64,000 bases of DNA, taken from Sorangium aterium (GTDB taxonomy: Bacteria; Myxococcota_A; Polyangia; Polyangiales; Polyangiaceae). The notes under the pieces are model-generated. The model did not search any database, was not told the origin of the DNA, and saw nothing but the letters and a program-made list of their open reading frames with translations. This document shows, piece by piece, positions 38,762 through 63,099 of the stretch. The stretch's first letter is position 1. Every line of letters begins with the position of its first letter. A program made the translations under genes and the position numbers. Location: the NCBI RefSeq assembly GCF_028368935.1, contig NZ_JAQNDK010000007.1:310001-374000 (forward strand). The letters run 5' to 3'.

Positions 38762-41700
38762 TCACCCGCAAGCGCGCGCGATCGCCTGCAGATCGTCGAT
38801 GACGTCACCGGCGACCCGCTGCGCGGTCGCCGGCGCATGCACGTTCGCGCTGTAGCGCCACCGGAACGTCAGGGCCCCTCCGCGGACGAGGACGTGGCAC
38901 TCGAACAGGTTGAACCTCAGGTTCGTCGCCGCCTCGTCGTACCCCGTGGACTCGCTCGCCACGCGGAGGATCGAGCCCTGCGCAGGCGGCTCGACGCGCC
39001 CCTGGTAGTTGAAAAGGATCCCCGGTCGCTTCCGGAGCCGCCCGAGCTCCGCGCTGAGCCCGGCGTCGCCGCCCAGGTACTTGAGGAGGTTGTAGCCGTG
39101 GCCCCCGTTCGGGATGCGATCGAGCTGCCGGCTCGTATCGAGCAGCGCCGCGAGCGGCTCTCGCTGGCTCGAGCGCCGGAGCACGAGCACCCGCTCGGCG
39201 CTCAGCCACCCCACCGTGCGCGACGCGTCGAGCTCCGGGCGATGGGGCATCAGATCACGCCCCGAGTTGAGGACCATGATGTCCTGCCAATCGCGGCCCG
39301 TCCACGCGGTCACGCCGCGGAGGACCGCGGCGATGAGCGCGTGCTCCGTGCTCACCCCGAAGCGCGCCGGCAAGTCCCGCAAGATGACCTGAGACTCCTG
39401 CTCCGAGAGCGACGCCCAGTGATCACGGACCGACTCCACCGTACAGAGATGGCGGGTCGCCGGGTGGTCCGCTGGGAGGGGATCGATCTCGTTCCAGGGC
39501 AGCGAGAGCCAGTAGGCGCGCTCGTTGGGCAGGATCTCCTCGCTCACCCACCGCTCGAGCGCGCGCGTCCAGCGGCCGGCCGAGGCGCCCGCGGGCGGCA
39601 GGCGGGGCGTGGCCGTCGTCGCGAGCTGATCGTAGATGGATTGCAGATCGAGCGCGGCGATCATCATCGACATCCAGTCGACGACGAGGTGGTGCGCGTT
39701 GAGCCACAACCGCCCTCTCCCCTGCTCGTCCCACCGGAAAAACACGATCCGGAACAGCCGCCCGCGCTCGAGCTCGTATTCGTCTTGCATGCGATCGCAA
39801 TGCCGCTCGATCTCGGTCCCGCGCCGATCCTCCGGGATCCCGGACAGATCGACGCAGGCGAACGGCGCCTCGGTCCACGGCGCGTCGATCACCTGGCGAA
39901 AGCCGCTCGGGGTGCGCTCGAAGCGCGCGCGGAGCGCCTCATGGTGGTTGACGAGGACGAGCGAAGCGCGCGCGAGCCTGTCGAGATCGAGCGGCGCCAC
40001 GGCCTCCAGCAGCAGGTTCACGTTCCAGCGCGCCGGGCGGGTGCGCCCGGGGGCCTCCTCCAGATACCAGCGCTGGAGGACGGTGAGCGGCCGCTCCCCA
40101 TTCTCTGGTTCGACGTCCACCGCCGCGCGCTCCAGCGAGGCGCAGGCGGCCGAAAGGCGCGCGATCGTCTGGTGCTGGAAGAGCTGCCTTGGCGTGACAT
40201 CGAGCCCCGCCTCCCGCGCCCGCTCGACGAGCGCAATGCCAAGGAGCGAATCCCCTCCGAGCGCGAAGAAATTGTCGTCCACGCCCACCCGATCCAGCTT
40301 GAGGACGCCGGCCCAGAGCGCTGCCATGCGGCGCTCTGCCTCCGACGACGGCGCCCGGTAAGCCGCGCTGGCCCCCTGGTGGTGCCGGTGAGCGAGCTCG
40401 AGGAGCGCGCTCCGATCGACCTTGCCGTTGGCCGTCAGCGGCATGCGCTCCAGCGCGACCCACGCGCTGGGTACCATGTACTGCGGCAGCCTCGCGGCGA
40501 CGACCTCCTCCAGGGCGCGAGGCTCGAGCGCGGCGCCCTGTGCCGCCACGTAGCAGGCCACGAGGCGCCTGGCCCCGCTCGGGGTCGACTCCACGCACAC
40601 CACCGCTTGCTCGACCTCGGGATGCTGCGCCAGCGCGGCCTCGATCTCCCCGAGCTCGATGCGGTTTCCCTGGATCTTCACCTGGAAGTCTTCCCGCCCG
40701 ATGAACTCGATGTTCCCGTCCGGAAGGAATCGCCCGAGATCGCCGGTCCAGTAGAGCCGCTCGCCCGTCTCCGGGTGCTCGAGGAAGCGCTCCGCCGTCT
40801 GCGCAGGATCCCGGTAGTAGCCGCGGGCGAGGCAGATCCCGCCGACGTACATGCGGCCGACGACCCAGTCGGGACACGGGTGCATGCGCTCGTCGAGCAC
40901 GTGGACACGCTGGTTCGGGAGGGGCTTGCCGTAAGGGATGCTCCTCCAGGTCGAATCCACCTCTCCGACGGGATAGAAGATCGACCAGATCGACGTCTCC
41001 GTCGGCCCCCCCGCGCCGATGACCCGCGCCCCCGGGCAAGCGCGGCGGATCCGATCGGGCAGCGGCACGGGGATCCAGTCGCCGCTCAGGATGACCCAGC
41101 GCAGCGAGGGGCACGCCGGAGGAGCGCCGCCGAGGTGCTCGACGAACATCTGCATCAGCGCGGGCACCGAGTTCCAGACGGTGACCCGGTGGGTCTCGAT
41201 GAGGTGCCGCCAGTGCGCCGGATCCCGCGCCGCCTCGGGCGAGGGGATGACCAGGGCGCCTCCCGCGCCGAGCAGGCCGAACACGTCGTACACCGAGAGA
41301 TCGAAGTGAACGGCGGAGAGCGCGAGGGCGCGATCCGATGAGGAGACCTGGAAGCGCTCGTTGATCTCGACGATCGTGTTCAGCGGGCCGCGGTGGTCGA
41401 GCGCCACGCCCTTGGGCTTCCCCGTCGAGCCCGACGTGAACAGCACATAGGCGAGATCGTCCGGCCCCTGGACCGCCGCGACCGGGCTGTCGTCCTCCGA
41501 CGCGGACGCGCTGTCGTCGTCGACCGCGATCAGGCGCAGGGCCTCGGGCCAGGCCAGCGAGGAGGCCAGACGCTCCTGCGTGAGGACGATCTCCGCCTCC
41601 CCCTGATCCAGGACCGCGCGGATGCGCTCGATGGGCCACTCCGGATCGACGGGCAGGTACGCCGCCCCCGATTTGAGGGCTGCCAGGATCGCCACGATCT

Positions 41701-44700
41701 GCGCCCACCCCTTCGCCGCGGCCACAGCGACGAGCGCGTTCGGCCGGGCTCCGAGCGCGCGAAGGCGACGGGCGAGCGCGCTGCTCTTCCGATCGAGCTC
41801 CCCGTAGGTGAGCGTCCCCTCGGGGCTGATGATCGCCGGCGCAGCGGGGTTCAGCGCCGCTTGCCGCATGAACCCGCTGTGCAGGAGGTCGCTCGAGACC
41901 TCACGGGTGGTGCTGTTGACGCCGGCGCGGACGGCCCGCTGCCGCTCAGGGAGCTTGATGGTCGCCGCCCTGGTCCAGGGCGCGCCGTCCCGGGAGAGGC
42001 GGCTCAGGAGCGCCGCGTACGCCTCCAGGAGATCCGCCGCGAGGCCTTCAGGGAACAGATCGTCGGCGGAGCCGAAGCTCAGCACGAAGCCCTCGTCGTC
42101 CTGCTGGATCTCGTGCTCGATGCAGGGAGCCTGCGTGCCTTGTCCTCCTCCCTCGGGTCGGAAGGGCGCACAGACGCGCAGCCGGACGGCCGTCGCGCCG
42201 GGGTGACGCACGGCTTCGTCCGGCGCTCGTGTCCCGGGCGCGGCGCGCGCCATGGCCTCGTCGAAGGCCCGGGCGAGGTCGACGAACGGCGCCTTGACGC
42301 CGCGGCTCACCTCGATCTGCCCGCTCCCTGCGCCGATGGAGACGGACAGCAATCCGTTCTGCGGCTCGCCCGGCGCGCCGACCACGACGGCCAGCGGCGA
42401 CGTGCTCCACGCGGCGACCGCCTGCGCGAAGGCGGCGGCGACGGCCGCGCCCGGGGCCACGCCGAGGAGCGCCGCGCGCGCCTCGAGCCCGCGGAGGAGC
42501 CCGGCGTCGACGCGCCGGGCGCGGCGGACGAGCCGAGGAGGCTCCCCCGCGAGGTCGCTCCGCACGAACGGGAGCGCAGGCGCCGAGAGCCCCCGGCGCG
42601 CAGCCGCTGCGGTCGCGGGTCCGAGCGCCTCGCCGCGGAGGAGCGCCGAGACCCTCGCCTCGGGCTCGCGCGCCGCCTCGGTGAGGAGGCGCTGGAGGAG
42701 CTCGGCGTGGCGCGCGATCGTCGCCTCGCGGAACAGCGCCGTGTCGTACTCGATATGACCGCTCAGGGTCGCCCCGTCGCGCTGCATCGACAGGGTGATG
42801 TCGTACTGCGATGTGCCGGGATCGAGGTCGATCGGCGTCACCCGCGCCCGGCCCAGCGAGACCGGCGCTGGCACCTTGGGCTGGAAGGCGAACATCACCT
42901 GGAACAGCGGAGTCCGGCCGAGATCTCGCTCCGGCCGAACGGCGTTGACGAGCCGCTCGAACGGGATGTCCGCGTGAGCGAACACGCGCACCGCGGCGCC
43001 GCGCACCCGCGCGAGGAGCGCGCTGAAGGCCGGGTCGTCCCCGAGATCGCCGCGGAAGACAAGGGTGTTTACGAAGCACCCGATGACGCCCTCGAGCTCG
43101 GGGTGATCACGCCCAGCGATCGGCGTCCCGACGAGGAGATCCGCCTGCCCGCTGAGCCGGTGGAGCAGCGCGAGGAACCCGGCCATCAGGACCATGAACG
43201 GCGTCACGCCGCGCTCGCGGCCGAGGTCCTCGACGGCCTCGGTCAGCGCCCGCGAAAAGCGGAAGTGGTGCCGCGCCCCCTGGTACCGCTTCTCCGCGGG
43301 GCGAGGGTGATCCGTCGGGAGATCGAGCGTCTGGCCGGCCCCCGCGAGCTCGGCCTTCCAGAAGGCGATCTCCTCGCTCCGCGCCGCCTCGTCCCACCGC
43401 TGCCGCTCGTGGACCGCGTGGTCGCCGTGCTGGACCGGGAGCGGCTCCCAGCGCGGGCGCTCGCCCGCCGAGATCGCTTCGTAGGCGGCGGCGAGCTCGC
43501 GCACGAAGATCTCGTGCGACCAGCCGTCGGTCACGATGTGGTGCATCGCGAACGCGAACAGGTACCGCTCGTCGTCGAGCTGCGCGAGCTCGGCCCGCAC
43601 CAGGGGGCCTCGGGCGAGGTCGAACGGGCGCCCCGCCATCCGCCGCAGCCGCGCGAGCGCCGTCGCCTCGCGCGCGTCCCGGGCGAGCGCCCGGTGATCG
43701 ACCTCCTCGAAGTCGAGCTGCGCCGATGGCTGGACGATCTGGACGGGAGCCCCGTCCACGACGCGGAACACGGTGCGGAGGGCCTCGTGCCGCTCGATGA
43801 CGGCGTGGATCGCGCGCTCCAGGGAGCGCACGCACAGGGGCCCCGCGATCTCGGCCGCGCCGCCGACGTTGTAGGCCCCTGTTCCGGGCGCCAGCCGGTC
43901 CAGGAACCAGAGCCGCGTCTGCGCGTACGACAGCGGGATCACCCCGCCCGGGTCGCGGCGGCGCAGCGCCGGACGCGTCGACGGACGCGCGAGCTGCTCG
44001 ATCCGCCGCGCCAGATCGGCGAGCGACGGCGTGTCGAACAGCCACCGGAGCGGCACCTCCACGCCGGCGCGCTCGCGGATGCGGGAGACGGCGCGCATCG
44101 CGAGCAGCGAATGGCCCCCGAGCTCGAAGAAATGGTCGGTCCTGCCCGGCGCGCGCCCGAGGAGCTCTTCCCAGACGGCGGCCACGAGCCTCTCCATCTC
44201 GGTCGCCGGCTCCTGCCGATCGCGCGCCGGCGGGCGCTCCAGCGCGTCCAGGCCCGGGAGCGCCTTGCGGTCGATCTTGCCGTTCGGCGTCTGCGGCATC
44301 CGGGGCAGCTCGACGAAGCGCGCCGGCAGCATGGCTTCGGGCAAGAACGCGCGCGCGTGCGCCCGGAGCGCCTCGGGGCTCACCGGCCCCGCCGCGGGCA
44401 CGTAATAGGCGACGAGCACCGCCTCGCCCACCGCGTCCCGGTGCGCCGCGCAGACGCATTCCCCGACGCCGGGGTGGCGCGCCACGGTCGCCTCGATCTC
44501 GCCGAGCTCGATTCGGAAGCCGCGGATCTTCACCTGATGATCGATCCGGCCGAGGAACTCGAGCCGCCCGTCGTGCGTGATGCGCGCCAGGTCGCCGGTG
44601 CGGTACATCCGCGCGCCCGGCGCCGGCGAGAACGGGTCGTCCACGAACCGCTCCCGGGTCAGGTCAGGCCGGCCGTGGTACCCGCGGGCCAGGCCCGCTC

Positions 44701-47224
44701 CGCCGATGTAGAGCTCCCCGGCCACGCCGATCGGGAGCCGCTCGCGCCGCTCGTCCAGGAGGTAGATGCGCGTGTTGGCGATCGGGGATCCCAGGGTGAT
44801 CGTGTCCGGATCGTCGACGCGCGCCGCGGCGGACCACACGGTCGTCTCCGTCGGGCCATACAGGTTCCAGAGGCAGCCCGCGCGCGCGCCGATCTCCCGG
44901 GCGAGGTCCGGCGGCAGCGCCTCCCCGCCTGCCAGCGCGCGGAGGCGCGGGCTGCCCGTCCACCCCGCCGCGAGCAGGAGGCGCCAGGTGCTCGGCGTCG
45001 CCTGCATGACCGTCGCCCCCGAGCGCTCCAGCGCGCGCAGGAGCGCTGTGCCGTCCCGCGCTTCGGCGGCGGACACGAGGACCGTCCGCCCGCCGACGCT
45101 CAGCGGCAGAAACAGCTCCAGGACGGAGATATCGAAGGACGCCGTGGTCACCGACAGCAGCACGTCGCCGGCGTCGAGGCCGGGCCTTTCCCGCATCGCC
45201 TCAAGGAAGTTCACGACGCTGCGGTGCTCGACCTGCACGCCTTTCGGGTGCCCGGTCGAGCCCGACGTATAGATGACGTAGGCGAGGTTCCGGCTGCAGG
45301 GCGGCGCCGCGAGCGGCTCCTCGGCCAGGCCGGAATCCTCGGTGAGATCCTCGAAGAACGCCGTCCGCTGCGGCTCGCCGGCGAGCGGGCGTCGCAGCGC
45401 GCGCTGCGTGAGCAGGACGGCGGCCCCGACGTCGCGCAGGATATAGGCGATGCGCTCGCCCGGCAGCGCGGGATCCAGGGGTACGTAGGCGCCGCCCGAT
45501 CTCAGGATCGCGAGCAGCCCGATGACGAGATCGATCGATCGGTCCATGCAGATCGCCACCGGGACGTCCGGACCGACGCCCATCGCGCGCAGCCGGCGCG
45601 CGAGGCGGGCCGAGGCGCGGTCGAGCTCTCCGTACGTGATCTCGCCCTCGCCGAACGCGAGCGCGACGCGCTCCGGATGGCGCTGCGCCTGCCGCTCGAA
45701 GAGCTCGTGGACGCAGAGCTCCTCGGGAAAAGGTCGCTCTGTCCGGTTCCATTGATCGAGGTGCAGCGCGTCGGCCTCGTGCACGACCGGCAGGTGGAGC
45801 ACGCGCGTGTCGGGGCGCGCCGCCGCCGCGCGCAGGAGCGCCTCATAGCTCCTGAGCATCCGCTCCGCCGTATCGCTGCGGAACAGGTCGGTGTCGTACT
45901 CCAGATCGAGCCGGAGGCCCTGCGGGCGGTCCCAGGCCTCGACGGTCCAGTCGAACTTCGACGTCGTCACCGGCACCTCGACCGGCTCGACCGTGAGCCC
46001 GGTGAAGGCCGGCAGATCGGCGGCAGCGGTCTGCAGGATGAAGAGGGTCTGGAACAGCGCCGCGTGGGACGTGCTCCGCTCGGGTTGCAGCGCCTCCACG
46101 AGCAGCTCGAACGGCAGATCGTCGTGCGCGAAGGCGTCGAGCACGTCGCGCTTCGTGCGGCGGAGCAGCTCGACGAAGCTGGGGTTGTCCGAGAGGTCGG
46201 CGCGGAGCGCGAGGTTGTTGACGAACATCCCGGCGAGCGGCTCGATCTCTCGCCGCGTCCGCCCGGCGACGGGCGACCCGACCACGACGTCGAGCTTCTG
46301 CGTGACGCGACAGAGGAGGACCTGGTACGCGGCGAGGAGCGCCATGAAGAGGGTGACGCCCTCCCGCTGGCACAGCGCCTTCACCGCCGCGCCGAGCCGG
46401 GGTGACAGCGTGAGCGACGCCTTCGCCCCCCGGTGCGCCTGCGAGGCCGGGCGCGGACGGTCCAGCGGGAGCTCGAGGAGCGCCGGCGCGCCGCGCAGCC
46501 GCTCCTTCCAGTACGCGAGCGCCCGTTGAAGGCGCTCCTGGCTCCACTGGCTCCGCTGCCAGACGGCGTGATCGCCGTACCGGACGGGCAGCTCGGCCAG
46601 CCGCGGGGCGCGCCCCGCGACGAGCTCATTGTAGAGCGCGCCGAGGTCCCGGAGCAGCACGCCCCAGCTCCAGTGATCGCTGGCGATGTGGTGAGTCGCC
46701 ATGAGCAGGACGTGCTCCTCTGCGGCCAGGCGAAAGAGCGCTGTCCGGAGGAGGTCGCCTCGCTCCAGGACGAAGGGCGCCTGGGCGATCTCTGCGCACT
46801 GGAGGGCGAGCTCGCGCTCGCGGGCCGCCGGATCCACCGCGGAGAGGTCCGTGACCGCCACGGCGACGCCGGACGGCGGCAGCACCTCCTGGTAGGCCTC
46901 CTCGGCGTCCTCGCCGAAGCGCGTCCGCAAGATCTCGTGCCGCTCCACGAGGAGCGAGAGGGCCCGCTCGAGCGCGGCCACGTCGAGCGAGCCCCGGAGC
47001 CGCGCGGCCCCCTGGAGGTTGTATGCAGGGCTGTCGGGCGCGTACCGGTACAGGAACCAGAGCCGCTGCTGCGCGAACGACAGGGGGAACCTCGACCGCG
47101 TCCCGCTCCGCTGCGGCCCCGCCGCCGCGCCGCCGCCGGACGGACGTTGTCCCTTCAGCTTCGCGACGAGCGCCTTGAGCTCCTGGGACGACAGGCCTTT
47201 GATCCGCTGCTCTAGCTCGCTCAC
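38762..47224 (-). CDS. NRPS: C-A(Gly)-PCP-C-(half Cy)-A(Cys-like)-PCP-E
   Basis: A 2820-residue, last assembly-line protein. Domain order with rough positions: C1 (HHIASDHW, about 180), A1 (YTSGSTGHPKG, about 656), PCP1 (LGGHSLL, about 1037), C2 (HHIVTDGW, about 1231), a half Cy-like segment (about 1535-1725), A2 (TSGSTGKPKG, about 1933), PCP2 (LGGDSLL, about 2328), then an E-like domain (HHLVVDW, about 2514; GHGYNLLKYL; ILFNYQGR). The A1 pocket reads DILQLGLVWK, the glycine code; A2 reads DLYNLSAIWK, close to the cysteine code. No thioesterase follows. The GTG at 47224 follows AGGAG; a TTG lies at 47242. The helical N-terminus suits docking. Assembly proceeds from the PKS upstream. Confidence 0.9.
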   Translation of the reverse strand: MSELEQRIKGLSSQELKALVAKLKGQRPSGGGAAAGPQRSGTRSRFPLSFAQQRLWFLYRYAPDSPAYNLQGAARLRGSLDVAALERALSLLVERHEILRTRFGEDAEEAYQEVLPPSGVAVAVTDLSAVDPAARERELALQCAEIAQAPFVLERGDLLRTALFRLAAEEHVLLMATHHIASDHWSWGVLLRDLGALYNELVAGRAPRLAELPVRYGDHAVWQRSQWSQERLQRALAYWKERLRGAPALLELPLDRPRPASQAHRGAKASLTLSPRLGAAVKALCQREGVTLFMALLAAYQVLLCRVTQKLDVVVGSPVAGRTRREIEPLAGMFVNNLALRADLSDNPSFVELLRRTKRDVLDAFAHDDLPFELLVEALQPERSTSHAALFQTLFILQTAAADLPAFTGLTVEPVEVPVTTSKFDWTVEAWDRPQGLRLDLEYDTDLFRSDTAERMLRSYEALLRAAAARPDTRVLHLPVVHEADALHLDQWNRTERPFPEELCVHELFERQAQRHPERVALAFGEGEITYGELDRASARLARRLRAMGVGPDVPVAICMDRSIDLVIGLLAILRSGGAYVPLDPALPGERIAYILRDVGAAVLLTQRALRRPLAGEPQRTAFFEDLTEDSGLAEEPLAAPPCSRNLAYVIYTSGSTGHPKGVQVEHRSVVNFLEAMRERPGLDAGDVLLSVTTASFDISVLELFLPLSVGGRTVLVSAAEARDGTALLRALERSGATVMQATPSTWRLLLAAGWTGSPRLRALAGGEALPPDLAREIGARAGCLWNLYGPTETTVWSAAARVDDPDTITLGSPIANTRIYLLDERRERLPIGVAGELYIGGAGLARGYHGRPDLTRERFVDDPFSPAPGARMYRTGDLARITHDGRLEFLGRIDHQVKIRGFRIELGEIEATVARHPGVGECVCAAHRDAVGEAVLVAYYVPAAGPVSPEALRAHARAFLPEAMLPARFVELPRMPQTPNGKIDRKALPGLDALERPPARDRQEPATEMERLVAAVWEELLGRAPGRTDHFFELGGHSLLAMRAVSRIRERAGVEVPLRWLFDTPSLADLARRIEQLARPSTRPALRRRDPGGVIPLSYAQTRLWFLDRLAPGTGAYNVGGAAEIAGPLCVRSLERAIHAVIERHEALRTVFRVVDGAPVQIVQPSAQLDFEEVDHRALARDAREATALARLRRMAGRPFDLARGPLVRAELAQLDDERYLFAFAMHHIVTDGWSHEIFVRELAAAYEAISAGERPRWEPLPVQHGDHAVHERQRWDEAARSEEIAFWKAELAGAGQTLDLPTDHPRPAEKRYQGARHHFRFSRALTEAVEDLGRERGVTPFMVLMAGFLALLHRLSGQADLLVGTPIAGRDHPELEGVIGCFVNTLVFRGDLGDDPAFSALLARVRGAAVRVFAHADIPFERLVNAVRPERDLGRTPLFQVMFAFQPKVPAPVSLGRARVTPIDLDPGTSQYDITLSMQRDGATLSGHIEYDTALFREATIARHAELLQRLLTEAAREPEARVSALLRGEALGPATAAAARRGLSAPALPFVRSDLAGEPPRLVRRARRVDAGLLRGLEARAALLGVAPGAAVAAAFAQAVAAWSTSPLAVVVGAPGEPQNGLLSVSIGAGSGQIEVSRGVKAPFVDLARAFDEAMARAAPGTRAPDEAVRHPGATAVRLRVCAPFRPEGGGQGTQAPCIEHEIQQDDEGFVLSFGSADDLFPEGLAADLLEAYAALLSRLSRDGAPWTRAATIKLPERQRAVRAGVNSTTREVSSDLLHSGFMRQAALNPAAPAIISPEGTLTYGELDRKSSALARRLRALGARPNALVAVAAAKGWAQIVAILAALKSGAAYLPVDPEWPIERIRAVLDQGEAEIVLTQERLASSLAWPEALRLIAVDDDSASASEDDSPVAAVQGPDDLAYVLFTSGSTGKPKGVALDHRGPLNTIVEINERFQVSSSDRALALSAVHFDLSVYDVFGLLGAGGALVIPSPEAARDPAHWRHLIETHRVTVWNSVPALMQMFVEHLGGAPPACPSLRWVILSGDWIPVPLPDRIRRACPGARVIGAGGPTETSIWSIFYPVGEVDSTWRSIPYGKPLPNQRVHVLDERMHPCPDWVVGRMYVGGICLARGYYRDPAQTAERFLEHPETGERLYWTGDLGRFLPDGNIEFIGREDFQVKIQGNRIELGEIEAALAQHPEVEQAVVCVESTPSGARRLVACYVAAQGAALEPRALEEVVAARLPQYMVPSAWVALERMPLTANGKVDRSALLELAHRHHQGASAAYRAPSSEAERRMAALWAGVLKLDRVGVDDNFFALGGDSLLGIALVERAREAGLDVTPRQLFQHQTIARLSAACASLERAAVDVEPENGERPLTVLQRWYLEEAPGRTRPARWNVNLLLEAVAPLDLDRLARASLVLVNHHEALRARFERTPSGFRQVIDAPWTEAPFACVDLSGIPEDRRGTEIERHCDRMQDEYELERGRLFRIVFFRWDEQGRGRLWLNAHHLVVDWMSMMIAALDLQSIYDQLATTATPRLPPAGASAGRWTRALERWVSEEILPNERAYWLSLPWNEIDPLPADHPATRHLCTVESVRDHWASLSEQESQVILRDLPARFGVSTEHALIAAVLRGVTAWTGRDWQDIMVLNSGRDLMPHRPELDASRTVGWLSAERVLVLRRSSQREPLAALLDTSRQLDRIPNGGHGYNLLKYLGGDAGLSAELGRLRKRPGILFNYQGRVEPPAQGSILRVASESTGYDEAATNLRFNLFECHVLVRGGALTFRWRYSANVHAPATAQRVAGDVIDDLQAIARACG

Positions 47225-47262
47225 CTCGACGCTCCTCTCCAAGGTTCCAGCGCGTTCACGGC

Positions 47263-50200: not shown

Positions 50201-52671
50201 TCGCCCGGCCCTGGCAGCAGGGGAACGGCCGCGCTCTCCGCGCTCCCCCCGAGCTGCGCGCGCACGAGCGAGCACAGCGTCGAGCCGGGCCCGACCTCCA
50301 CGAACAGGTGCGGTCCTTCGCCCTCGAGCGCCGCCTTGACGCCGTCGCCGAAGCGGACCGCGCGCCGCAGGTGGTCAGCCCAGTACTGGGCGCTCCGCGC
50401 CATCGAGCCCGTCATCCACCCGCCGGTGACGTTGGAGAGGAGGGGAATCCGGGGCTCGCGCAGCGTGATCCCCGCCATGGCCCTGCGGAACTCGTCCAGG
50501 ATCGGCTCGGTCGCGGCGGAGTGGAACGCGTGGGAGGTCTGGAGCCGGCGGCCCTTGATCCCGCGCGCGCCGAGCTGCGCCTCGTACCTCGCGATGGCCG
50601 CCTCGGGGCCGGAGACGACGCACAGCTCGGGCCCGTTCACCGCGGCGAGCGACAGCGCTTGTGGCAGGCTCTCGAGCGCTGCCCCCTCGGACAGCGGCAC
50701 CGCGAGCATCGCCCCGCGCGGCAGCGACTGCATCAACCTTGCGCGCACCGCGACCGCCCGGAGCGCGTCCTCGAGCGAGAACACCCCCGCGACGCAGGCC
50801 GCCACGAGCTCGCCGACGCTGTGCCCGAGGAGCGCCTCGGCGCGCGCTCCCCACGACTCGAGCAGCCGCGCCGCGGCGTACTCGACGGCGAACAACGCCG
50901 GCTGAGCGACCTCCGTCTCCCGGAGCTCCTCGGCCGGGCCATTGAACAGCAGCGCTCTCAGATCGCGGCCAAGGTGCGGCCGGAGCCGCTCCGCGCACTC
51001 GTCCAGGATCTCCCGGACAACGGCGTGCTCCTCGTACAGCGACCAGCCCATTCCAGGGTGCTGGCTCCCCTGGCCGGTGAACAGCATCACCACGCCGGCG
51101 GTGCCCGTCCGCGCCCCTCGCCCAGGCCTGGGCGCGCGCAGCCGCGCGACGGCGTCCGGCGACGACGACGCGACGACGAAATCGCGGTGCGGGAACCTCC
51201 GCCTCCCCTCGAGCAGCGTGAACGCCGCGTCGCGCAAGGAGATCTCCGGGTGCCCCTCGAGGTGCTCCGCGAGGCGCGATCGCATCGCTGCCAGGGCGGC
51301 CTCGCTCCGGGCCGACAGCGCCAGGATCTCGCTCTCTCCGCCGGGGGTCGGGTGATAGACCGGCCCTTCCTGGAGGACCGCGTGCACGTTCGCTCCCCCG
51401 ATCCCGAACGAGCTCACGCCCGCTCGCCGAGGGCCGTTGTCCCTCGGCCAGGCGCGGAGCTCCGTGTTCACATAGAAAGGGGAGCTGTCGAAGTCGATCT
51501 CCGCGTTGGGCCGCCGGTAGTGGAGCGTGGCCGGGATCTGCGCGTGCCGGAGCGCCAGCACCGTCTTGATGAGCCCGACGATGCCGGCCGCCGTGTTCGA
51601 GTGGCCCACGTTCCCTTTCACCGATCCGAGGGCGCACCGGCGGAGCGGGGCGGCGGCGCGCCGGAAGGCCTGCTCCAGGGCGCGGACCTCGATGGGGTCG
51701 CCGAGCGACGTGCCGGTCCCGTGCGCCTCGACGTAGTCGATGGTGTCCGGCCGGACGCCGGCCACCTCGTGCGCCATCACGATCACCGAGGCTTGCCCGT
51801 CGACGCTCGGGGCGGTGTACCCGACCTTGGCGGAGCCGTCGTTGTTCGTCGCGGACCCGAGGACGATCGCGTGGATGAAATCGCCCTGCGCGATCGCGTC
51901 CTCGAGCCGCCTCAGCACGACGACCCCGACCGCGTCGCCGAACACGGTCCCCGCGGCGTCAGCGTCGAAAGGACGGCAGTGGCCGTCGGGGGAGCATGGC
52001 CCGCCCTTCTCGTAGAAGTACCCGCGCCGCTCCGGGAACATCACCGACGCCGCGCCCGCGATCGCCATGTCGCACTCGACGGCGCGCAGGCTCTGGCATG
52101 CTTGATGGACCGCCGCGAGCCCTGTGGAGCAGGCCGTCTGGACGCTGATGCTCGGTCCCTTGAGGTTGAGTTTGTACGCGACGCGCGTCGTCAGGTAGTC
52201 CTTGTCGCTCGCGATCAGGAGCTGCATCGCCTCGGAGGACTCGAACTTGTGGAGCAGCGCGCGGTGGTGCGAGAGGAGATACGAGTTCATCTTGGCGCCG
52301 GCGAAGACGCCTATCCAGCCGGGGAACCGCTCGGCGTCGTGACCTGCGTCCTCGAGCGCCTCGTACGCGCACTCGAGGAACAGCCGCTGCTGCGGATCGA
52401 TCCACTGCGCCTCCCGCTCGCTGTATCCGAAGAAGTCGGCGTCGAACCACTCCGGCCTGTCGAGGCAAGGTCGCGCCTTGACGTAGCCCGGATCCCTCAC
52501 CTGGGCGCGAGGGACCCCGGCGGCGATCAGCTCCTCTTCCGTGAAGCGGGCGATGGACTCCCTGCCATCGCGCAGGTTCCTCCAGAACGCCTCTGGATCG
52601 TTCGCCTGCGGGAACCGCCCGCTCAGCCCGACGATCGCGATGGCGTCGCGCAGATCTCCGAGGTCCTGCAT
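47263..52671 (-). CDS. Type I PKS module: KS-AT-KR-DH-ACP
   Basis: An 1802-residue PKS extending the chain by one malonyl unit. KS: active Cys in QTACSTG (about 180), with EAHGTGT and KGNVGHS histidines. AT: GHSVGE (about 617) with HAFH (about 715), predicting malonyl-CoA. KR: TGAFGGIG (about 1148) and the Tyr of QADYAAANAY. A DH-like domain follows the KR (AEHRTQRDGLVSGTTLLEM, about 1393; HPALLDVA), with an altered HxxxGxxxxP block, so its activity is uncertain. ACP: LGGHSLL (about 1741). KR before DH is unusual. Three bases separate it from the FAAL-NRPS stop upstream, and 38 bases from the next NRPS start. Confidence 0.92.
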   Translation of the reverse strand: MQDLGDLRDAIAIVGLSGRFPQANDPEAFWRNLRDGRESIARFTEEELIAAGVPRAQVRDPGYVKARPCLDRPEWFDADFFGYSEREAQWIDPQQRLFLECAYEALEDAGHDAERFPGWIGVFAGAKMNSYLLSHHRALLHKFESSEAMQLLIASDKDYLTTRVAYKLNLKGPSISVQTACSTGLAAVHQACQSLRAVECDMAIAGAASVMFPERRGYFYEKGGPCSPDGHCRPFDADAAGTVFGDAVGVVVLRRLEDAIAQGDFIHAIVLGSATNNDGSAKVGYTAPSVDGQASVIVMAHEVAGVRPDTIDYVEAHGTGTSLGDPIEVRALEQAFRRAAAPLRRCALGSVKGNVGHSNTAAGIVGLIKTVLALRHAQIPATLHYRRPNAEIDFDSSPFYVNTELRAWPRDNGPRRAGVSSFGIGGANVHAVLQEGPVYHPTPGGESEILALSARSEAALAAMRSRLAEHLEGHPEISLRDAAFTLLEGRRRFPHRDFVVASSSPDAVARLRAPRPGRGARTGTAGVVMLFTGQGSQHPGMGWSLYEEHAVVREILDECAERLRPHLGRDLRALLFNGPAEELRETEVAQPALFAVEYAAARLLESWGARAEALLGHSVGELVAACVAGVFSLEDALRAVAVRARLMQSLPRGAMLAVPLSEGAALESLPQALSLAAVNGPELCVVSGPEAAIARYEAQLGARGIKGRRLQTSHAFHSAATEPILDEFRRAMAGITLREPRIPLLSNVTGGWMTGSMARSAQYWADHLRRAVRFGDGVKAALEGEGPHLFVEVGPGSTLCSLVRAQLGGSAESAAVPLLPGPGDTGKGRRVLLEAAGELWARGADLRWQAVFPDARARRVPLPTYPFERRRHAVEDGLPEPSTGTAETMAHEGAEDTGGARLFRLRWSRLHEAAPLSRLENGAPWLLLTDADEGAGALEAHVRGSGARVITARPGPAFAASGDLAFVLRPDSEEDLRALLSTLDGQGLFPGRIVHLWSALGGPGEGAEAILRRGLLSVCAVSRSLGAAPPGAGIELAIVTRGAHAIAGETTPSPDHAALVGLCRSLGNELAGVRCRAVDVVPPRDGEAATSWARALFRELAGEPEHDLVLLRAQQRWVPAFQAILPPSPAAEASRLRRGGVYLITGAFGGIGLRLAEHLARAWAAKLVLMGRTPLPPRSEWSSYRERDGALAATAEILEALGRMEAEGTELVVAPGDVAEPQDVARVFAEARARFGRIDGIFHGAGIPGAGPLEARTNEEICRVLSPKTTGTRNLADQLGREGEQPFLVLFSSTFSHLGAIGQADYAAANAYLDAFAGAYQSATGNPSFAIAWDGWEQIGMAARAGITRPGPLLPGPGSSLRGHHPLIDRVDGAAPGPRVFHKRFSLARDWPVAEHRTQRDGLVSGTTLLEMARAAATLAGRGAVELHEVRFHTPCRVEDGAPQDVCLESEQRGARTEFSIFAPGPAGVRERLASGTWTPALDETREHAPVASIRRRCRPAAARQLFEAVNASGLLRWGPRWDCIESLHVGEDEALAELGLRPEFAADLSVYGLHPALLDVATSVTAVLDPRGIYLPAGYGRVVCLAPTPSRLFSHVRLRRDDTEPGRALSADVTLLDEQGRVIADVTRFVLQRVHGGAALAAPSRRASRGIAPEDGMKALEQILALTGPEQIVVSPRDFPALAEQQRRARREPSASPRRPLGDDERPRDEIERVVCSQWEELLGRRPIGIHDEFFSLGGHSLLAIQILSRINDAFDVDLPKQDMFEGATVARLAEKITSALAERLAVLESMTDAAAPGEPS

Positions 52672-52674
52672 CGT

Positions 52675-55600
52675 TCAATCCTCCGGCTTGCCCTGGCGCG
52701 AGGCTTGCTCCGACGCGGACGGCGCGAGCCCGCGCCGCTCCAGGCCGCGCTCGCGCTGCCGCCGGGCGCGCGCGGTGATGGCGTCGAACCGGGCGCCCTC
52801 CGCCGCGCCCGGCGCGGCCCCGGGCGCCGCCGCATCCTCGCCTTTCGCCGAGGAGGGCGCGTTCACCCCGAGCGTCCTCAGGTACGCCGCCTGCTGGGAC
52901 ACCGTCGGATGCTCGAACAGGTGCACAAGGGGAACATCGCGGCTGAAGCGCTCGCGGAGGCTGCGCGCCATGCTGACGAGCAGGAGCGAATCGCCCCCGA
53001 GGTCGAAGAAGTTGTCGTCGTGACCGACGCGCGGGCGTCTCAGCACCTCGGCCCAGATGCTGGCAATGGCGCTCTCCAGCCCGTCGCTCGCCGCCGCGGA
53101 GGGCCTCGCCCAGGCTCGCTCTGCGGGCGGCGGCGCGTCCTCCGGGGCTGACCGCTGCGCGCCCTCCGGGGCTGACCGCTGCGCGCCCTCCGCCGGGCCA
53201 GGGAGCCTGTCGACGACGACCACCCTGACGGGCTCCTCCGTCCAGCGCTCTGCGACGTACGACGAGAGCGCTCGCGCGAGCCCATCGCGCGGCCGCTCCG
53301 GCCTCGCCAGGGCGGCGCCCTGCGGCGGCGCGGCGCGCGTCGCGGCGTCGACCATGGCCGCCAGCGCCGCCGACTCGCGGGCCAGCGCCTCGAGGGTGGT
53401 GTCCGCGTCCGAGATGGCCCCCCCGACGAGGCCGTGGAGGTATTCGTGGCGCGGGCCGACCTGGAAGAGGTGGGCGACCTGCGCGAAATCGAACCCGCCC
53501 GTCTGACAGAGGCCGATCTGGTGATCCGGCGCCGTCGACTCGAGCAGATGGGCGATGACGCCGGCCTCCATGAGGCACAGATCCCGCGCCCGGCTGCCGT
53601 ACACCGGCTCGATGGCGCCTAGATCCGCCACGAGGTACACGCTGAACGCCGAGCTGTCGAACGCCTGCCCGTTGGGGCCCCCGTGGACCGAGCGGTCGAT
53701 GTCCGCGCCGGGCTGGATCGCGACCAGCTGCTCGCGCTCCGGGTGGAAGTAGTACGTGCCTCCGGGGACCCGCTCGATCCGATCCGGCTTCACATACAGG
53801 TACACGTGCACCGGATACAGGTTGCCCGCCGAGGCGTAGAGCTGCTTGGCGAGCGGATAACCCGGCAGCCTCACCGGAGACAGCTGCCTCAGGAAGCGCG
53901 CCAGACGTTCGAAGGCGATGGGCTCGCTCCGGAACTGGCGATAGCTGCGCCGCCGCGCGAACGCCGAGAGATCCTCGTCCGTGCGCGCGCGCGCGATCAG
54001 GGGGATGGCGGCCCCGGAGAGATCATCGCGCTGCGCCGGCTTGCTCAGCTTGAACTTCAGCCTCGCGATCGGATCCTGCAGCAAGGGTACCTCCGGGTCC
54101 GCCGCGCCCTCTCGGGCCGTCACGTACGCGACCAGCCCGGCGCGCTCGTCCGCGGCGCGCTCCACCCTCGCTGCCGCGACGCTCGGGTGCTCGCGGAGCA
54201 GCGCCTCGACCCCGGGCGCGAGCCCCGGATCAGCCGCATTGTCCCGCGGAGGCGCGATGACCTGCTCTTCCACGCCGGACTCGCGCGCTGGATCCGGAAG
54301 GGCGCTGCGATCGACCTTGCCGTTGCTGGTGAGGGGGAGGCGGTGCACCTCCACGAAGGCGCTCGGCACCATGTAGTCCGGGAGCTTCGAGGCGATGAAC
54401 GCCCGCAGCGCGGGCGCCTCGAGCGCCTTGCCCGGGGCCGGAACGACATGGGCGATGAGCCGCTTTCCACCGCTCGCCGTGCTCCCCACCGAGACAGCGG
54501 CGCTCGCCACGTCGGGGTGCTGCAGCAGCGCGGCCTCGATCTCCTCGAGCTCGATCCTGTGCCCTTGAATCTTCACCTGGAAGTCTTCGCGTCCCAGGAA
54601 TTCGATGTTCCCGTCCGGCAGACAGCGTCCCAGGTCGCCGGTCCAGTACAGCCGCTCTCCGGTCTCCGGGTGTGTCACGAAGCGCTCGCGCGTCCTCTCC
54701 TCGTCCCGCCAGTAGCCGCGCGCGAGGCCCATGCCGCCGATGTAGAGGCGCCCGGGCACCCCGTCGGGACACGGCTCCATCGCCCCGTCGAGCACGTGGA
54801 ACCGCTGGTTCGCGAGCGGCTTGCCGTAAGGGATGCTCTTCCAGCTCGGATCCACGCGGGTGATCGGATAGGCGATCGACCAGATCGACGCCTCCGTCGC
54901 CCCGCCGAGGCTCAGCACCGACGCGCCCGGGAACGCCTCGCGGATGCGATCGGGCAGGGTCACCGGGATCCAGTCCCCGCTGAGGAGCACGGCGCGCAGG
55001 GGCGCGGGGGCGCCCGGGCGCTCCGCCCGGTGCTCCACGAGCATCTGCATGAGCGCCGGGACGGTGTTCCACAGCGTCACGCCGTGCCGGGACATCAGCT
55101 CCTCCCAGTGGCCGGGATCGCGCAGCCGGCCCGGCTCGGGCAGCACCACCGCGCCCCCCGCCGCCCACAGGCCGAAGAGGTCGTAGACCGACAGATCGAA
55201 GGCGAGCGCCGAGAGCGACAGGACACGATCGGACGCGTTCACGCCGAGGCGCGCGTTCACGTCCGCGAGGGTGTTCACGGCGCCGCGGTGATCGATCGCC
55301 ACGCCCTTCGGCCTCCCCGTCGAGCCCGAGGTGAAGATGACGTAGGCCAGATCGTCGGGTTGCTGAGCGGCCTCGATGGGCGACTCGTCCTCTGACAGCC
55401 CGCCCGGCGCGTCCAGGGGCACGACGATCGTCCCCGCGGGCCACCGGGCCGGCTCCGCGAACCGCGCCTGGGTAAGGACGATCTGCACCTCGCCCTGCGC
55501 CAGGATCCCCCAGAGCCGCTCTCGGGGCCACGCCGGATCCACAGGCAGGTAGGCAGCCCCGGACTTGAGGACGCCGAGCGCCCCCAGCGCCTGCGCGATG

Positions 55601-58600
55601 CCCTTCTCGCAGGCGACGGCGACGAGGGTGTTGGGACGCGCGCCGCGGCCCCGCAAGGCGCGGCCGAGGGCGTTGCTCTGCCGGTCGAGCTCCCCGTAGG
55701 TGATGCTCCCCTCGGGCGCGATCACCGCGGGCGACCCGCCGCGGGCCGCCGCGCTCCGGAGGAACGCCGCGTGGAGCAGCTCCTCCGGCGCGGGCCGCTG
55801 CGTCCGGTTCATCCGGGCGCGCGCCTCCTGCTGCGCGACCGGGAGCGCGACCCTCGCCCGCTGGAGCGCCTCGTCGCCGCGCGCCAGCCGGGTGAGCAGA
55901 TCGAGATAGGACTCGAGCATCGCTCCGACCATCCCCTCGGGGAAGAGCCCCTCGACGACATCCCAGGAGAACGCGAGCTCCCCCTGGTCCTCGGTCACCT
56001 GATGATCGAGCCACACCTGCGGTGTCTGGGTGACCATGAAGACCTCCTTGCCGAGCCAGGAGAACAGCGACTGCGGCTCGGCCCCTCCCTGGCCCAGCAG
56101 GCTCGTGAACACCACGGGGACGCTCGGCGCGTGCGCCTGGCGGAGCGCCGGGATCGCCCCCGCGCGCCGGTGCTCGATTGCCCTCCAGATCTGGTCCTGG
56201 GTGGCGCGCGCCAGCTCGGAGACCGCTTTGCGCCCGCCCACGTCGAAGCCCACGAGCACCACCGTGGTGAAGTCGCCGACGATCGCCGCGACGTCCTCGT
56301 GCAGCCGCGGGCGCTCGAACGACGTCAGCGTGAGCGAGAACTCCGGGCGGGCGCTCCACTTCCCGAGCACCTGGGCGAACGCCGCGAGGACGACGGCCGA
56401 AGGCGTGAGGCGGCTCGCCTTCGCCCGGCCCTTCAGCGACTCCCACGCGGCCCGATCGAGGCGCCCCCTGTGCCGCACGAACCGGGGCGGCGTGACGTCT
56501 CGAGGCTTCCCGGCGAGCGGCAGGTCGGGCGCCGGGGGGAGGCTCGCCACGCGCTCGCGCCAGAACGCGAGCGAGCGCTCGTGATCCGCTGTCTGTCGAT
56601 GGCGCTCCGCATCGACGATGCAGTCCCGGAAGGTCACGCCGAGCGGCGGCAGCTCGAGCTCGGGCTGCTCGTAGAAGCGCTCCAGATCGCGCGAGACGAT
56701 CCCGCAGCTCCAGGCGTCGAGCGCGAGGAGATCCAGGTTGATGTGCACGCGGCGCCGGCCGTCTGGAAGGAGCGACACGCCGGCGTCGAACAGGGGCCAT
56801 TCCGTGGGCGCGAACACGCGGTGGGACAGCCGATGACGGATGTCCTCGAGCGCCCGGCCGGCGTCGGCCGGCGTCATCGCGCGGAGGTCCCAGATCTTCG
56901 GCTCGAAGCGGGGCACCGTCCGCTGCACCCGCTGGAGCCCGTCTCCGGTGAACACGGCCCTGAGCATCCCGTGCCGTGCGATGACCCGATTCCACGCTCG
57001 CTCGAAGCGCTCGAGATCCAGCCCATCACACTCCCGCTCGAGGTAGCCGTGACAGCCGACGCCCCCGAGGTCGAAGGCGCTCTCCCGCCCGACCAGATAC
57101 GCCCGCTGCACGTCGGTCTGGGGAAAGGGCGCGCCCGGGTCGTCGTCGCCTGGGCTGACGACGGGGGCCTCTCCCTCGCGGCCGCCGGGCGAGAGCGGCC
57201 CCGCGAGCAGGCGCGACAGCTCGGTCAACGTCATTCCCTCGATCAAGCTCGCCGGCGAGACCTGCCTTCCGCTGAGCCCCGCGATGCGCTCCGCCAGCTG
57301 GATCGCCTTGACCGACTCGAGCCCGATCTCGACGAGCGGCACGTCCCAGCGCAGCTGTGCGCTGTCCACCTGAAGGAGGTCTCCCACGAGCGCCCCGAGG
57401 CGCGCGGTACAGCTCGATCCGCCGGGCTGCGCGCCTCCCGTCGCGGAGGCCCCGTCCTGGGCCGCGGCCGCGCCATCGCGCGCGTTCGCGCCGTGGAACA
57501 CGCCGAGGGGCCCGAGCTCGCCGCGCAGAAAGGCCGCCTTGCACGCCCTCCGCTGCACTTTCCCGCTCGTGGTCTTGGGGAGGCGGCGCGGGGGGAGGAG
57601 CACGACCGCGTGCACCGGGAGCCCGAACTGCTGCGCCACGGCGCGCCGAGCGGCGCGCGCGAGCGCCTCGAGATCGAGCCCGCGCTGCCCGCGCTTGATC
57701 TCCTGGCAGACGACGATCGCCTCCGGCTCCTCGACAGGGAGGCTCAGCCCGTCCTCGAGGCCCACGGAGAAGGCCGCTCCAGCGTCGGGCGCAAAGGCCT
57801 CGTGGGCGGAGCACACAGCGAGCTCGAGGTCCTGCGGATAGTAATTGCGTCCCCGGACGATGATGACGTCCTTGAGCCGCCCTGTGATGAACAGCTCTCC
57901 CTCCTGCAAGAACCCGAGATCGCCGGTCCGCAGGAAGCGCAGGTCGCCCGCCCCGCGCAGCCGCGCGCCGAACGAGGCGCTGGTCGCCTCCGGGTTCTTC
58001 CAGTAGCCGCTCACCACCGCGCTGCCCTCGACCCACACCTCGCCCACCTGCAGATCCGGCGCGGGCTCTCCGCTGGCTGGATCGACGATCGCGACGCGCG
58101 TGCCGGGCAGGGGTCGGCCGCAGCTCACGATCTCCTGTGCGCCGGGCTCCGCGGCGGCGCAGGCGCGCGCCCGCCCCTGTTGCAGCTCCGTGGAGCTCAC
58201 CCGGACGACGCGCGGCGGGCGCCTCGGCGAGACGCTGACCCCCAGCGTCGCCTCGGCCAGGCCGTAGGAGGGCCGCAGCGCGTCGGGCCGGAATCCGCTC
58301 GGCGCGAAGGCCTCGAGGAAGCGCGTGAGCGTCCCCGCGCGGACGGGCTCGGCCCCGTTGATCACCGTCTTCCATGCGGACAGATCGAGCCGTGCGCGCT
58401 GCTCCGCGGTCGAGCTCGTCACGCAGAGATCGAAGGCGAAGTTCGGAGCCGCGCTGTGGTGGCCGCGGTGGCGCGACAGCGCCTCGAGCCAGCGCATGGG
58501 CCGGAAGATGAACGACGCCGGAGGCATGCTGATGCACCTGCCGCCCACGAAGAGCGGCAGCATGATCCCGTGGATCAGCCCCAGATCGTGGAAGTGGGGC

Positions 58601-59310
58601 AGCCAGCTGACGAAGGTGTCGCCGCGCTCGATCCCGAACCCCTCGGCGAGCATGCGGCAGTTCTGCAGGACGTTGCGATGGCTGACCATCACGCCCTTGG
58701 GGCTGGAGGTCGAGCCGGAGGTATATTGCAGATAAGCGACGTCATCTATCGTGCCGCGGGCGGCGCGCGCGTCCTCGACGCCACGCGCGCCGCCCGCGCG
58801 TGCGGCGTCGGCGCCCGAGGAGCACTCCTCCAGCGTGTGAACGGCGAGCCCGGAGCGCGACGTCGACCCGCTCCGCTCCCGCGGCGCCGCTCCCGCGGCG
58901 AGCGCGCACGCAGGGGCACAGTCGGCCGTGATGGCGTCGAACCGAGACTCCGTCCGATTCGGCCGCGGGAGCGAGGTCGGGACAGCCACCATGTCCGCCA
59001 GCAGGCAGCCGAAGAACGCCTCGATGAACTCGAGCCCAGGGGCGAACAGGAGGAGGACGCGGCTCTTCGGCGGATAGCGCGCGCGGAGGAAGGCGGCGAT
59101 CGCCTGAGCGCGGGCGTGGAGCGCGGCGAACGAGAGCGCCGCCGTCTCCTCCTCGCCTTCGTGGAGATGGACGTACGCGGGCGCGTCGCCGAGCTCTTCC
59201 GCGCGGCGAGCGAGCAGCTCAGGCAGTGACGTCAGGGCGCTCCGAGATCCAGACAGGTCGTCCTGTGCGGCGCCGGGCGCATGCCCAGAAAAAGTCATGC
59301 CAAGTGTCAC
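52675..59310 (-). CDS. Loading FAAL-ACP fused to Cy-A(Cys)-Ox-PCP
   Basis: A 2211-residue, first assembly-line protein. A fatty-acyl-AMP ligase (YTSGSTSSPKG, about 195) loads an acyl starter onto an ACP (Ser in IGLESVKAI, about 663). Then come a heterocyclisation domain (DLLALDAWS, matching DxxxxDxxS, about 862), A (TSGSTGRPKG, about 1325), an FMN-type oxidase (RRSYRQF about 1788, to GLCQTGGFDF about 1935) and PCP (LGGDSLL, about 2107). The A pocket reads DLYNLSLIWK, the cysteine code, so an acyl-thiazole is predicted. The oxidase lies after the A10 motif NGKVDR. The GTG at 59310 follows AAAGGA; an ATG at 59298 is an alternative. Confidence 0.9.
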   Translation of the reverse strand: MTLGMTFSGHAPGAAQDDLSGSRSALTSLPELLARRAEELGDAPAYVHLHEGEEETAALSFAALHARAQAIAAFLRARYPPKSRVLLLFAPGLEFIEAFFGCLLADMVAVPTSLPRPNRTESRFDAITADCAPACALAAGAAPRERSGSTSRSGLAVHTLEECSSGADAARAGGARGVEDARAARGTIDDVAYLQYTSGSTSSPKGVMVSHRNVLQNCRMLAEGFGIERGDTFVSWLPHFHDLGLIHGIMLPLFVGGRCISMPPASFIFRPMRWLEALSRHRGHHSAAPNFAFDLCVTSSTAEQRARLDLSAWKTVINGAEPVRAGTLTRFLEAFAPSGFRPDALRPSYGLAEATLGVSVSPRRPPRVVRVSSTELQQGRARACAAAEPGAQEIVSCGRPLPGTRVAIVDPASGEPAPDLQVGEVWVEGSAVVSGYWKNPEATSASFGARLRGAGDLRFLRTGDLGFLQEGELFITGRLKDVIIVRGRNYYPQDLELAVCSAHEAFAPDAGAAFSVGLEDGLSLPVEEPEAIVVCQEIKRGQRGLDLEALARAARRAVAQQFGLPVHAVVLLPPRRLPKTTSGKVQRRACKAAFLRGELGPLGVFHGANARDGAAAAQDGASATGGAQPGGSSCTARLGALVGDLLQVDSAQLRWDVPLVEIGLESVKAIQLAERIAGLSGRQVSPASLIEGMTLTELSRLLAGPLSPGGREGEAPVVSPGDDDPGAPFPQTDVQRAYLVGRESAFDLGGVGCHGYLERECDGLDLERFERAWNRVIARHGMLRAVFTGDGLQRVQRTVPRFEPKIWDLRAMTPADAGRALEDIRHRLSHRVFAPTEWPLFDAGVSLLPDGRRRVHINLDLLALDAWSCGIVSRDLERFYEQPELELPPLGVTFRDCIVDAERHRQTADHERSLAFWRERVASLPPAPDLPLAGKPRDVTPPRFVRHRGRLDRAAWESLKGRAKASRLTPSAVVLAAFAQVLGKWSARPEFSLTLTSFERPRLHEDVAAIVGDFTTVVLVGFDVGGRKAVSELARATQDQIWRAIEHRRAGAIPALRQAHAPSVPVVFTSLLGQGGAEPQSLFSWLGKEVFMVTQTPQVWLDHQVTEDQGELAFSWDVVEGLFPEGMVGAMLESYLDLLTRLARGDEALQRARVALPVAQQEARARMNRTQRPAPEELLHAAFLRSAAARGGSPAVIAPEGSITYGELDRQSNALGRALRGRGARPNTLVAVACEKGIAQALGALGVLKSGAAYLPVDPAWPRERLWGILAQGEVQIVLTQARFAEPARWPAGTIVVPLDAPGGLSEDESPIEAAQQPDDLAYVIFTSGSTGRPKGVAIDHRGAVNTLADVNARLGVNASDRVLSLSALAFDLSVYDLFGLWAAGGAVVLPEPGRLRDPGHWEELMSRHGVTLWNTVPALMQMLVEHRAERPGAPAPLRAVLLSGDWIPVTLPDRIREAFPGASVLSLGGATEASIWSIAYPITRVDPSWKSIPYGKPLANQRFHVLDGAMEPCPDGVPGRLYIGGMGLARGYWRDEERTRERFVTHPETGERLYWTGDLGRCLPDGNIEFLGREDFQVKIQGHRIELEEIEAALLQHPDVASAAVSVGSTASGGKRLIAHVVPAPGKALEAPALRAFIASKLPDYMVPSAFVEVHRLPLTSNGKVDRSALPDPARESGVEEQVIAPPRDNAADPGLAPGVEALLREHPSVAAARVERAADERAGLVAYVTAREGAADPEVPLLQDPIARLKFKLSKPAQRDDLSGAAIPLIARARTDEDLSAFARRRSYRQFRSEPIAFERLARFLRQLSPVRLPGYPLAKQLYASAGNLYPVHVYLYVKPDRIERVPGGTYYFHPEREQLVAIQPGADIDRSVHGGPNGQAFDSSAFSVYLVADLGAIEPVYGSRARDLCLMEAGVIAHLLESTAPDHQIGLCQTGGFDFAQVAHLFQVGPRHEYLHGLVGGAISDADTTLEALARESAALAAMVDAATRAAPPQGAALARPERPRDGLARALSSYVAERWTEEPVRVVVVDRLPGPAEGAQRSAPEGAQRSAPEDAPPPAERAWARPSAAASDGLESAIASIWAEVLRRPRVGHDDNFFDLGGDSLLLVSMARSLRERFSRDVPLVHLFEHPTVSQQAAYLRTLGVNAPSSAKGEDAAAPGAAPGAAEGARFDAITARARRQRERGLERRGLAPSASEQASRQGKPED
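53140..53187 (-). repeat. 24-bp exact tandem duplication in an interdomain linker
   Basis: 53140-53163 and 53164-53187 are identical and in frame, encoding GAQRSAPE twice in the linker between the oxidase and PCP domains. A recent slippage or duplication event that lengthens the linker without breaking the frame. Confidence 0.8.
58762..58800. repeat. Dispersed 39-bp GC-rich element, copy in the FAAL gene
   Basis: Exact match to 59831-59869. The arms GGCGCGCG and CGCGCGCC could pair. This copy is in frame within the FAAL coding sequence and encodes a stretch in GGARGVEDARAARGT, which looks like an insert just before the conserved DDVAYLQYTSGST block. Confidence 0.7.
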
Positions 59311-59882
59311 GAACGGTTCCTTTCGATTCAAGCACGCAAGACCACCTGCGCGCACCCAGGCGCTTCACCCATCGAATCGATGCATGCGGCCCGCAGCACA
59401 TCCAATGCTATGCGGGAGATGCAGTGTGCGCCAACGGTCGAGGTGATTCACCGGGCTCGGCGCTCGCTTCGCTGCGAGCCCGAGAGGATCGTGGGTTACG
59501 GGGAACGCTCGAGCAACGGGCGCAGGTCATGACACGAAGGAGAGGGCTTGTCTAGCCCACCCATCGACGGAGCATGACATCACCTGACGATGCGGAAGAG
59601 GCCTGTGGCGCGGTGATGTGCTAGGCGCGCTCACCGCATGATCGCCTCGCAGGGGAGCAATCGTTAAATAGTGTTATTTATTGTTGAGAACGACGCCGAC
59701 CGACGAACCCGGTCGCATGACGAGATCACTCGCTCGATCTGTCGCAAACTGTCGAATGGCCCGCGCGCGGCGCACAGCCGCCCTCGGGCCGAGCGGCGAT
59801 GGCCTCTCGAAGCGCTGCTCCTGGTCGGACGGCGCGCGCGTCCTCGACGCCACGCGCGCCGCCCGCGCGCCCGCGCGCCCGC
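59311..59882. promoter_or_regulatory. 570-bp region upstream of the biosynthetic operon
   Basis: This gap holds the likely promoter of the assembly-line operon. On the minus strand, an AT-rich stretch at about 59662-59690 contains TTAAATAGTG and TTATTTATTG and stands out from the GC-rich surroundings, so a promoter may lie there. A hairpin (GGGCTCG at 59453-59459 with CGAGCCC at 59475-59481) follows in the leader. The second copy of the 39-bp element is also here. No gene is visible. Confidence 0.45.
59831..59869. repeat. Dispersed 39-bp GC-rich element, intergenic copy
   Basis: Exact match to 58762-58800, in the same orientation, 1069 bases away. It lies 14 bases past the stop of the LolA-like gene. 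The palindromic arms and occurrence both inside and outside a gene fit a REP-like element. Confidence 0.7.

Positions 59883-60573: not shown

Positions 60574-63099
<2,526 letters not shown>

Follow-up and report, generated by a model that had tools for sequence, protein, structure and literature searches.

A cluster of five genes in the genome of Sorangium aterium encodes a hybrid NRPS-PKS line whose product, taking the predicted scheme as a whole and judging from the sequence, is fairly likely to be a fatty-acyl-capped thiazole peptide with a carbamate. Clusters of this class are already known; what varies here is the last module and the last domain, with two odd features, a half Cy domain in front of the last A domain and a terminal E-like domain without the catalytic Glu. 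The analysed DNA (the window) comprised 64,000 nt, positions 310,001-374,000 of contig NZ_JAQNDK010000007.1 in a genome of 13.5 Mb (GCF_028368935.1). The gene set, the domain order, the status of the motifs, the conservation and the relatedness of the two Cys-type A domains were read directly from the sequence.

Organisation, conservation and surroundings of the cluster

The cluster consists of the following genes:
52675-59355, minus strand: P1, FAAL-ACP-Cy-A(Cys)-Ox-PCP (Pfam domains, PDB matches; orthologues 71-88% identical)
47263-52671, minus strand: P2, KS-AT(malonyl)-KR-DH-ACP, with KR ahead of DH (Pfam, motifs)
38762-47242, minus strand: P3, C-A(Gly)-PCP-C-half Cy-A(Cys-like)-PCP-E-like (Pfam, BLAST against the Cy-A of P1)
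37848-38675, minus strand: FkbM-family methyltransferase (domain search; kept in all four strains)
35415-37463, plus strand: O-carbamoyltransferase of the GdmN/NovN type, likely start at 35481 (full-length match; adjoins the cluster in all four strains)

P1, P2 and P3 are intact ORFs that follow each other with hardly any gaps between them, and GC3 showed a strong coding bias in all three. Translation of P1 probably begins at 59310 (GTG) or 59298 (ATG). Pfam assigned two AMP-binding domains, one Condensation domain, a Nitroreductase-type Ox domain and two carrier domains to P1, KS, AT, KR, PS-DH and ACP to P2, and three Condensation-family domains, two A and two PCP domains to P3. Orthologues were found in S. 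cellulosum So0008-312 (G166; 88-90% identity), So ce26 (G164; 71-75%) and So ceGT47 (G165; 71-74%), of which the last two have finished genomes. The cluster was thus present in four of the six Sorangium genomes examined, in dissimilar flanking contexts. The recurrence of P1-P3 in three further members of the genus, 71-90% identical, puts their arrangement far beyond chance.

The domain order that the first-pass annotation had claimed for three collinear proteins was borne out by the intact ORFs, the Pfam assignments and these orthologues, and so was the FkbM methyltransferase downstream. As a parts list it was correct in its domains but incomplete, since both the half Cy in P3 and the carbamoyltransferase had been omitted. 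The carbamoyltransferase has N- and C-terminal carbamoyltransferase domains and resembles GdmN (E 1e-163) and NovN (5e-161) over its full length; here, however, the gene sits in an NRPS-PKS cluster. It lies convergent after the FkbM gene in the window and in So0008-312, where it is cut by the contig start, and divergent ahead of P1 in So ce26 and So ceGT47. Because it was present in all four strains in two arrangements, we assigned it to the pathway, and the finished product should for this reason bear a carbamoyl group. The earlier proposal of FkbM as the sole tailoring enzyme is not supported in view of this conservation. No enzyme that would make the hydroxyl for carbamoylation was found in the cluster; the carbamoyl group would go onto an acyl-chain hydroxyl or, should the DH be weak, onto that at the polyketide beta carbon, and FkbM may methylate another O or S.

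Flanking genes were compared with stretches of G164, G165 and G166 (the first 20 kb of G166). LolA-like and kinase-MauG genes flank the cluster in the window and RCC1-repeat proteins in So0008-312, while in So ce26 the side of the carbamoyltransferase holds an NADH dehydrogenase 49 kDa-like gene and the far side has thioredoxin-like and HEAT-repeat genes. The right flank of the window lies millions of bases away from the cluster in So ce26 and So ceGT47. Several neighbours were considered as cluster parts and rejected: a penicillin-amidase protein, an ABC exporter and an amidohydrolase had no match beside the cluster in G164, G165 and G166, two ABC matches falling in G163, a genome without the cluster, and the LolA-like and kinase-MauG genes were unmatched beside the relatives' clusters, their region lying elsewhere in other Sorangium genomes. 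The kinase-MauG gene (60574-63411, minus strand) encodes a 945-aa protein with a Ser/Thr kinase domain (residues 122-380) and a MauG-type di-haem peroxidase domain (653-800), and each of the five other Sorangium genomes searched has a match to its DNA. At 22408-29094 (plus strand) the 1272-aa penicillin-amidase-domain protein is followed by the ABC exporter and a sigma-70-type factor, a region unlinked to the cluster in the relatives. A palindrome-like GC-rich repeat of 44 nt was also observed, in two copies that are 98% identical, one in a low-complexity loop of the FAAL gene (58757-58800) and the other upstream (59826-59869); its 33-base core occurs at just these two sites genome-wide with up to three mismatches allowed.

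The predicted acyl-thiazole start and polyketide step

The following domains of P1 and P2, all on the minus strand, bear on the first part of the pathway:
57496-59238, minus strand: FAAL domain (fatty acyl-AMP ligase) of P1; best PDB matches 7r7e and the FAALs FadD32, FadD23 and FadD28; NCBIfam FAAL models
57220-57423, minus strand: acyl carrier domain of P1; carrier Ser in all four strains (GLES/GLDS)
55876-57132, minus strand: Cy domain of P1; motifs DxxxxDxxS, PVVFTS and QTPxVxxDH; best PDB matches Irp2, EpoB and BmdB
54286-55788, minus strand: A domain of P1; code DLYNLSLIWK (Cys) in all four strains
53437-53958, minus strand: BmdC-like Ox domain of P1, between A and PCP; best PDB match BmdC
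52879-53070, minus strand: PCP of P1 (Pfam)
47752-48579, minus strand: DH domain of P2; His and the Asp of HPALLD in all four strains, HxxxGxxxxP and DxxxQ/H motifs altered

At the head of P1 a FAAL-type adenylating domain precedes a carrier domain, the arrangement of a FAAL-initiated hybrid NRPS-PKS. The Cy domain with its DxxxxD and FTS/QTP motifs, the Cys code and the FMN-type oxidase are those of a thiazole-forming module, and the Cy motifs and the code are retained in all four orthologues. The codes of the A domains in P1 and P3 (Cys, Gly and Cys-like) were read through the Stachelhaus column mapping, which we assume to apply. EpoB has the domain order Cy-A-Ox-PCP. P1 is like EpoB (epothilone) and BmdB/BmdC (bacillamide) in its Cy motifs, its Cys code and its BmdC-related Ox (PDB 5t7z, 7ly7, 7ly5), but differs from the EpoB and BmdB modules in that the donor would be an acyl chain loaded by a FAAL within the same protein. 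For the scheme we infer every substrate and step as follows. The FAAL would load an activated fatty acid onto the first carrier; the Cy would join this acyl chain with Cys and close the thiazoline, which the Ox would oxidise to give a 2-alkylthiazole-4-carbonyl chain.

In P2 the KS Cys, the AT motifs GHSVG and HAFH and the KR Lys, Ser and Tyr were kept in all four strains, HAFH being a motif that we take to indicate malonyl specificity. P2 would extend the chain with malonate, followed by reduction and probable dehydration, to a 3-(thiazolyl)acryloyl unit. Within the module (47752-49254) KR lies ahead of DH, the opposite of the usual PKS order DH-KR.

Since the DH departs from the usual HxxxGxxxxP and DxxxQ/H motifs, a serious rival to dehydration is that this domain is inactive or leaky and that the beta-hydroxyl made by the KR persists beside the thiazole, as a natural site of O-carbamoylation or O-methylation. 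The DH is also among the faster-evolving domains (omega 0.37-0.72), and the conserved carbamoyltransferase requires a hydroxyl in a cluster that has no hydroxylase. The catalytic His and Asp are, however, retained in all four strains, and the domain still matches the GphF and Cur dehydratases; we regard a surviving hydroxyl as possible, with dehydration as the preferred outcome.

The last module of P3

The domains of P3, again on the minus strand, were located as follows:
44276-45700, minus strand: first A domain (A1); code DILQLG(L/M)VWK (Gly), DILQLGLVWK in the window
42623-43951, minus strand: second C domain (C2), complete, with HHIVTDG
41933-42583, minus strand: half Cy, a degenerate Cy C-terminal lobe (residues 1554-1770 of P3) whose catalytic motifs are gone
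40388-41890, minus strand: second A domain (A2); code DLYNIS(A/S)IWK, DLYNISAIWK in the window; sister to the A domain of P1
38765-40105, minus strand: E-like domain at the end of P3, catalytic Glu absent (VLNSGRD or VLHAGRD)

When the Cy-A of P1 was compared with P3 by BLAST, the match ran without a break from Cy query residue 203 through the A domain (52% over 751 aa, the Cy part being weak), which identifies residues 1554-1770 of P3 as a Cy C-lobe between the complete C domain and A2. This segment matched the Cy C-lobe of P1 with E values of 1e-14 to 1e-17 in all four strains, against E > 0.01 for lobes of C or E domains. A complete Cy with DxxxxD was not found before the last A domain of P3, the C-lobe alone being present, and the motifs FTS and QTPQVWLDH are missing from the segment. 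A2 and the A domain of P1 formed sister clades (support 0.966) in a tree built from 22 A domains. From this relationship and the Cy remnant, the simplest reading of the sequences is duplication of a Cy-A(Cys) module ahead of the split of these strains, with a whole C domain taking the place of its Cy N-lobe.

Alternatively, the half Cy could be a structural spacer or docking surface retained between C2 and A2 instead of a fossil. It stays in frame at about 220 aa in all four strains, and its omega is below 1 (0.64, 0.71 and 0.74 in three strain pairs). Compared with C2 (0.23-0.47) and A2 (0.26-0.40) these values are high; they were obtained by simple counting on GC-rich codons, where the contrast between domains alone is meaningful. 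In the three strain pairs the half Cy had the lowest identity of all domains (54% against 79-82% for its neighbours between the window strain, G000, and So ce26, G164), its omega was the highest or among the top three, and it has no active-site motif. Fast evolution by itself is no proof that function was lost, since the first carrier (omega 0.53-0.76) and the DH are fast too, as is the P2 linker (0.43-0.60). On balance we hold a retained spacer to be unlikely and prefer the remnant of a duplicated module.

Outside this cluster no half Cy was detected in 183 genomes of the order; eight matched, four of them through this cluster, and the matches in G151, G145, G163 and G146 were rejected because they lie in Cy domains that are intact by motif, with an upstream DxxxxD and the FT/QTP motifs. 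A plasmid search with P3 returned nothing beyond NRPS of < 60% identity. Structure models from four-row alignments (pLDDT 35.7 for C2 with the half Cy, 34.5 for the E domain) were not used.

P3 would add Gly and then a Cys-like residue, the latter as an ordinary amide because all that is left of its Cy is an inactive C-lobe, preceded by a complete C domain; uncyclised, this last residue would keep an open thiol. The pocket of A2 differs from the Cys code DLYNLSLIWK at two positions in all four strains, which makes Cys uncertain as the substrate. The first-pass interpretation was partly supported: its scaffold of acyl starter, thiazole, two-carbon unit, Gly and Cys is plausible and agrees with the domains, but it lacked the carbamoyl group, and the A2 pocket, the altered DH motifs and the missing release step qualify it.

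P3 terminates with the E-like domain, no later domain or docking tail being present, and the flanking ORFs that were scanned included neither a thioesterase nor a reductase. Both its motifs and its clustering with E domains in a tree of 35 domains mark this last domain as E-type. It shares RTVGW, GHGYNLLxYL and FNYQG with the E domains of PvdL, GrsA and TycA, PvdL being the best match (4e-40), but differs from them in having Leu for the Glu of EGHGRE in all four strains and DW(M/I)S for DGVSW. PMC7551626 places two residues in the epimerase active site, the HHxxxDG His and the EGHGRE Glu. All four orthologues retain the former but have Leu in place of the latter (VLNSGRD in two, VLHAGRD in two), whereas all 13 control E domains, drawn from 377 genomes of the phylum (up to four candidates scored per genome, E 1e-40 or better), have Glu. 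The domain is probably not an epimerase, and its annotation as one is not supported by a motif that lacks the catalytic Glu in every orthologue.

That the domain works despite its changed motif, leaving a D-configured last residue, with a free acid or ester released by a thioesterase encoded elsewhere, seems to us doubtful. In its favour, all four strains retain the HHxxxD His as well as the EGHGRE Arg, and the domain lies on the E side of the tree under ordinary purifying selection (omega 0.28-0.39); against this stand the Leu in place of the active-site Glu named in PMC7551626, the Glu of every control and the missing Trp of DGVSW. A bolder, twofold proposal would make the E-like domain itself the release catalyst, whose kept His hands the Cys-terminal chain with its open thiol on to water, to an amine or to the thiol of the chain itself, and would see in the half Cy the natural trace of a recombination between N- and C-lobe through which a Cys module that formed rings came to form amides; as a conjunction we consider this improbable. 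A half domain, an E domain without Glu and the missing release domain might even suggest that the cluster as a whole is in decay and yields no product, but this is very improbable, as all cluster ORFs are intact in four diverged strains, bar one carbamoyltransferase cut by a contig end, and omega is well below 1 in nearly all domains.

Relatives and significance of the pathway

Among the published papers searched we found no characterised pathway matching this cluster. None of the known or new pairs given in the consulted part of a study of 72 Sorangium strains fits (PMC12800573), and the consulted part of PMC6616573 names no matching Sorangium pathway. The thiamyxins, as described in the section of PMC10100342 consulted, likewise derive from a myxobacterial NRPS-PKS hybrid with thiazol(in)es, but have GNAT loading, nine NRPS modules and a thioesterase, none of which is found here. 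A distantly related cluster, on contig C106 of G151, a genome of the same family, shares the FAAL-type start, Cy-A(Cys)-Ox, the Gly module and a protein with KS-AT-KR-DH that is 42% alike to P2 over its full length; it differs in its intact Cy, its gene order and an extra luciferase-like monooxygenase, which sits in the middle of an NRPS protein.

The junction of the N- and C-lobes of condensation-type domains is a fusion site used by NRPS engineers (XUC approach). The last module of P3 would show a natural swap from ring closure to a plain amide by recombination inside such a domain. With no thioesterase found for the line and, at its end, an E domain that is constrained yet lacks the catalytic Glu, chain release becomes a clear, testable question. 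Besides its thiazole the predicted product would carry both a lipid tail and a carbamate, with possibly a free thiol as well, in a pathway that four Sorangium strains have kept.
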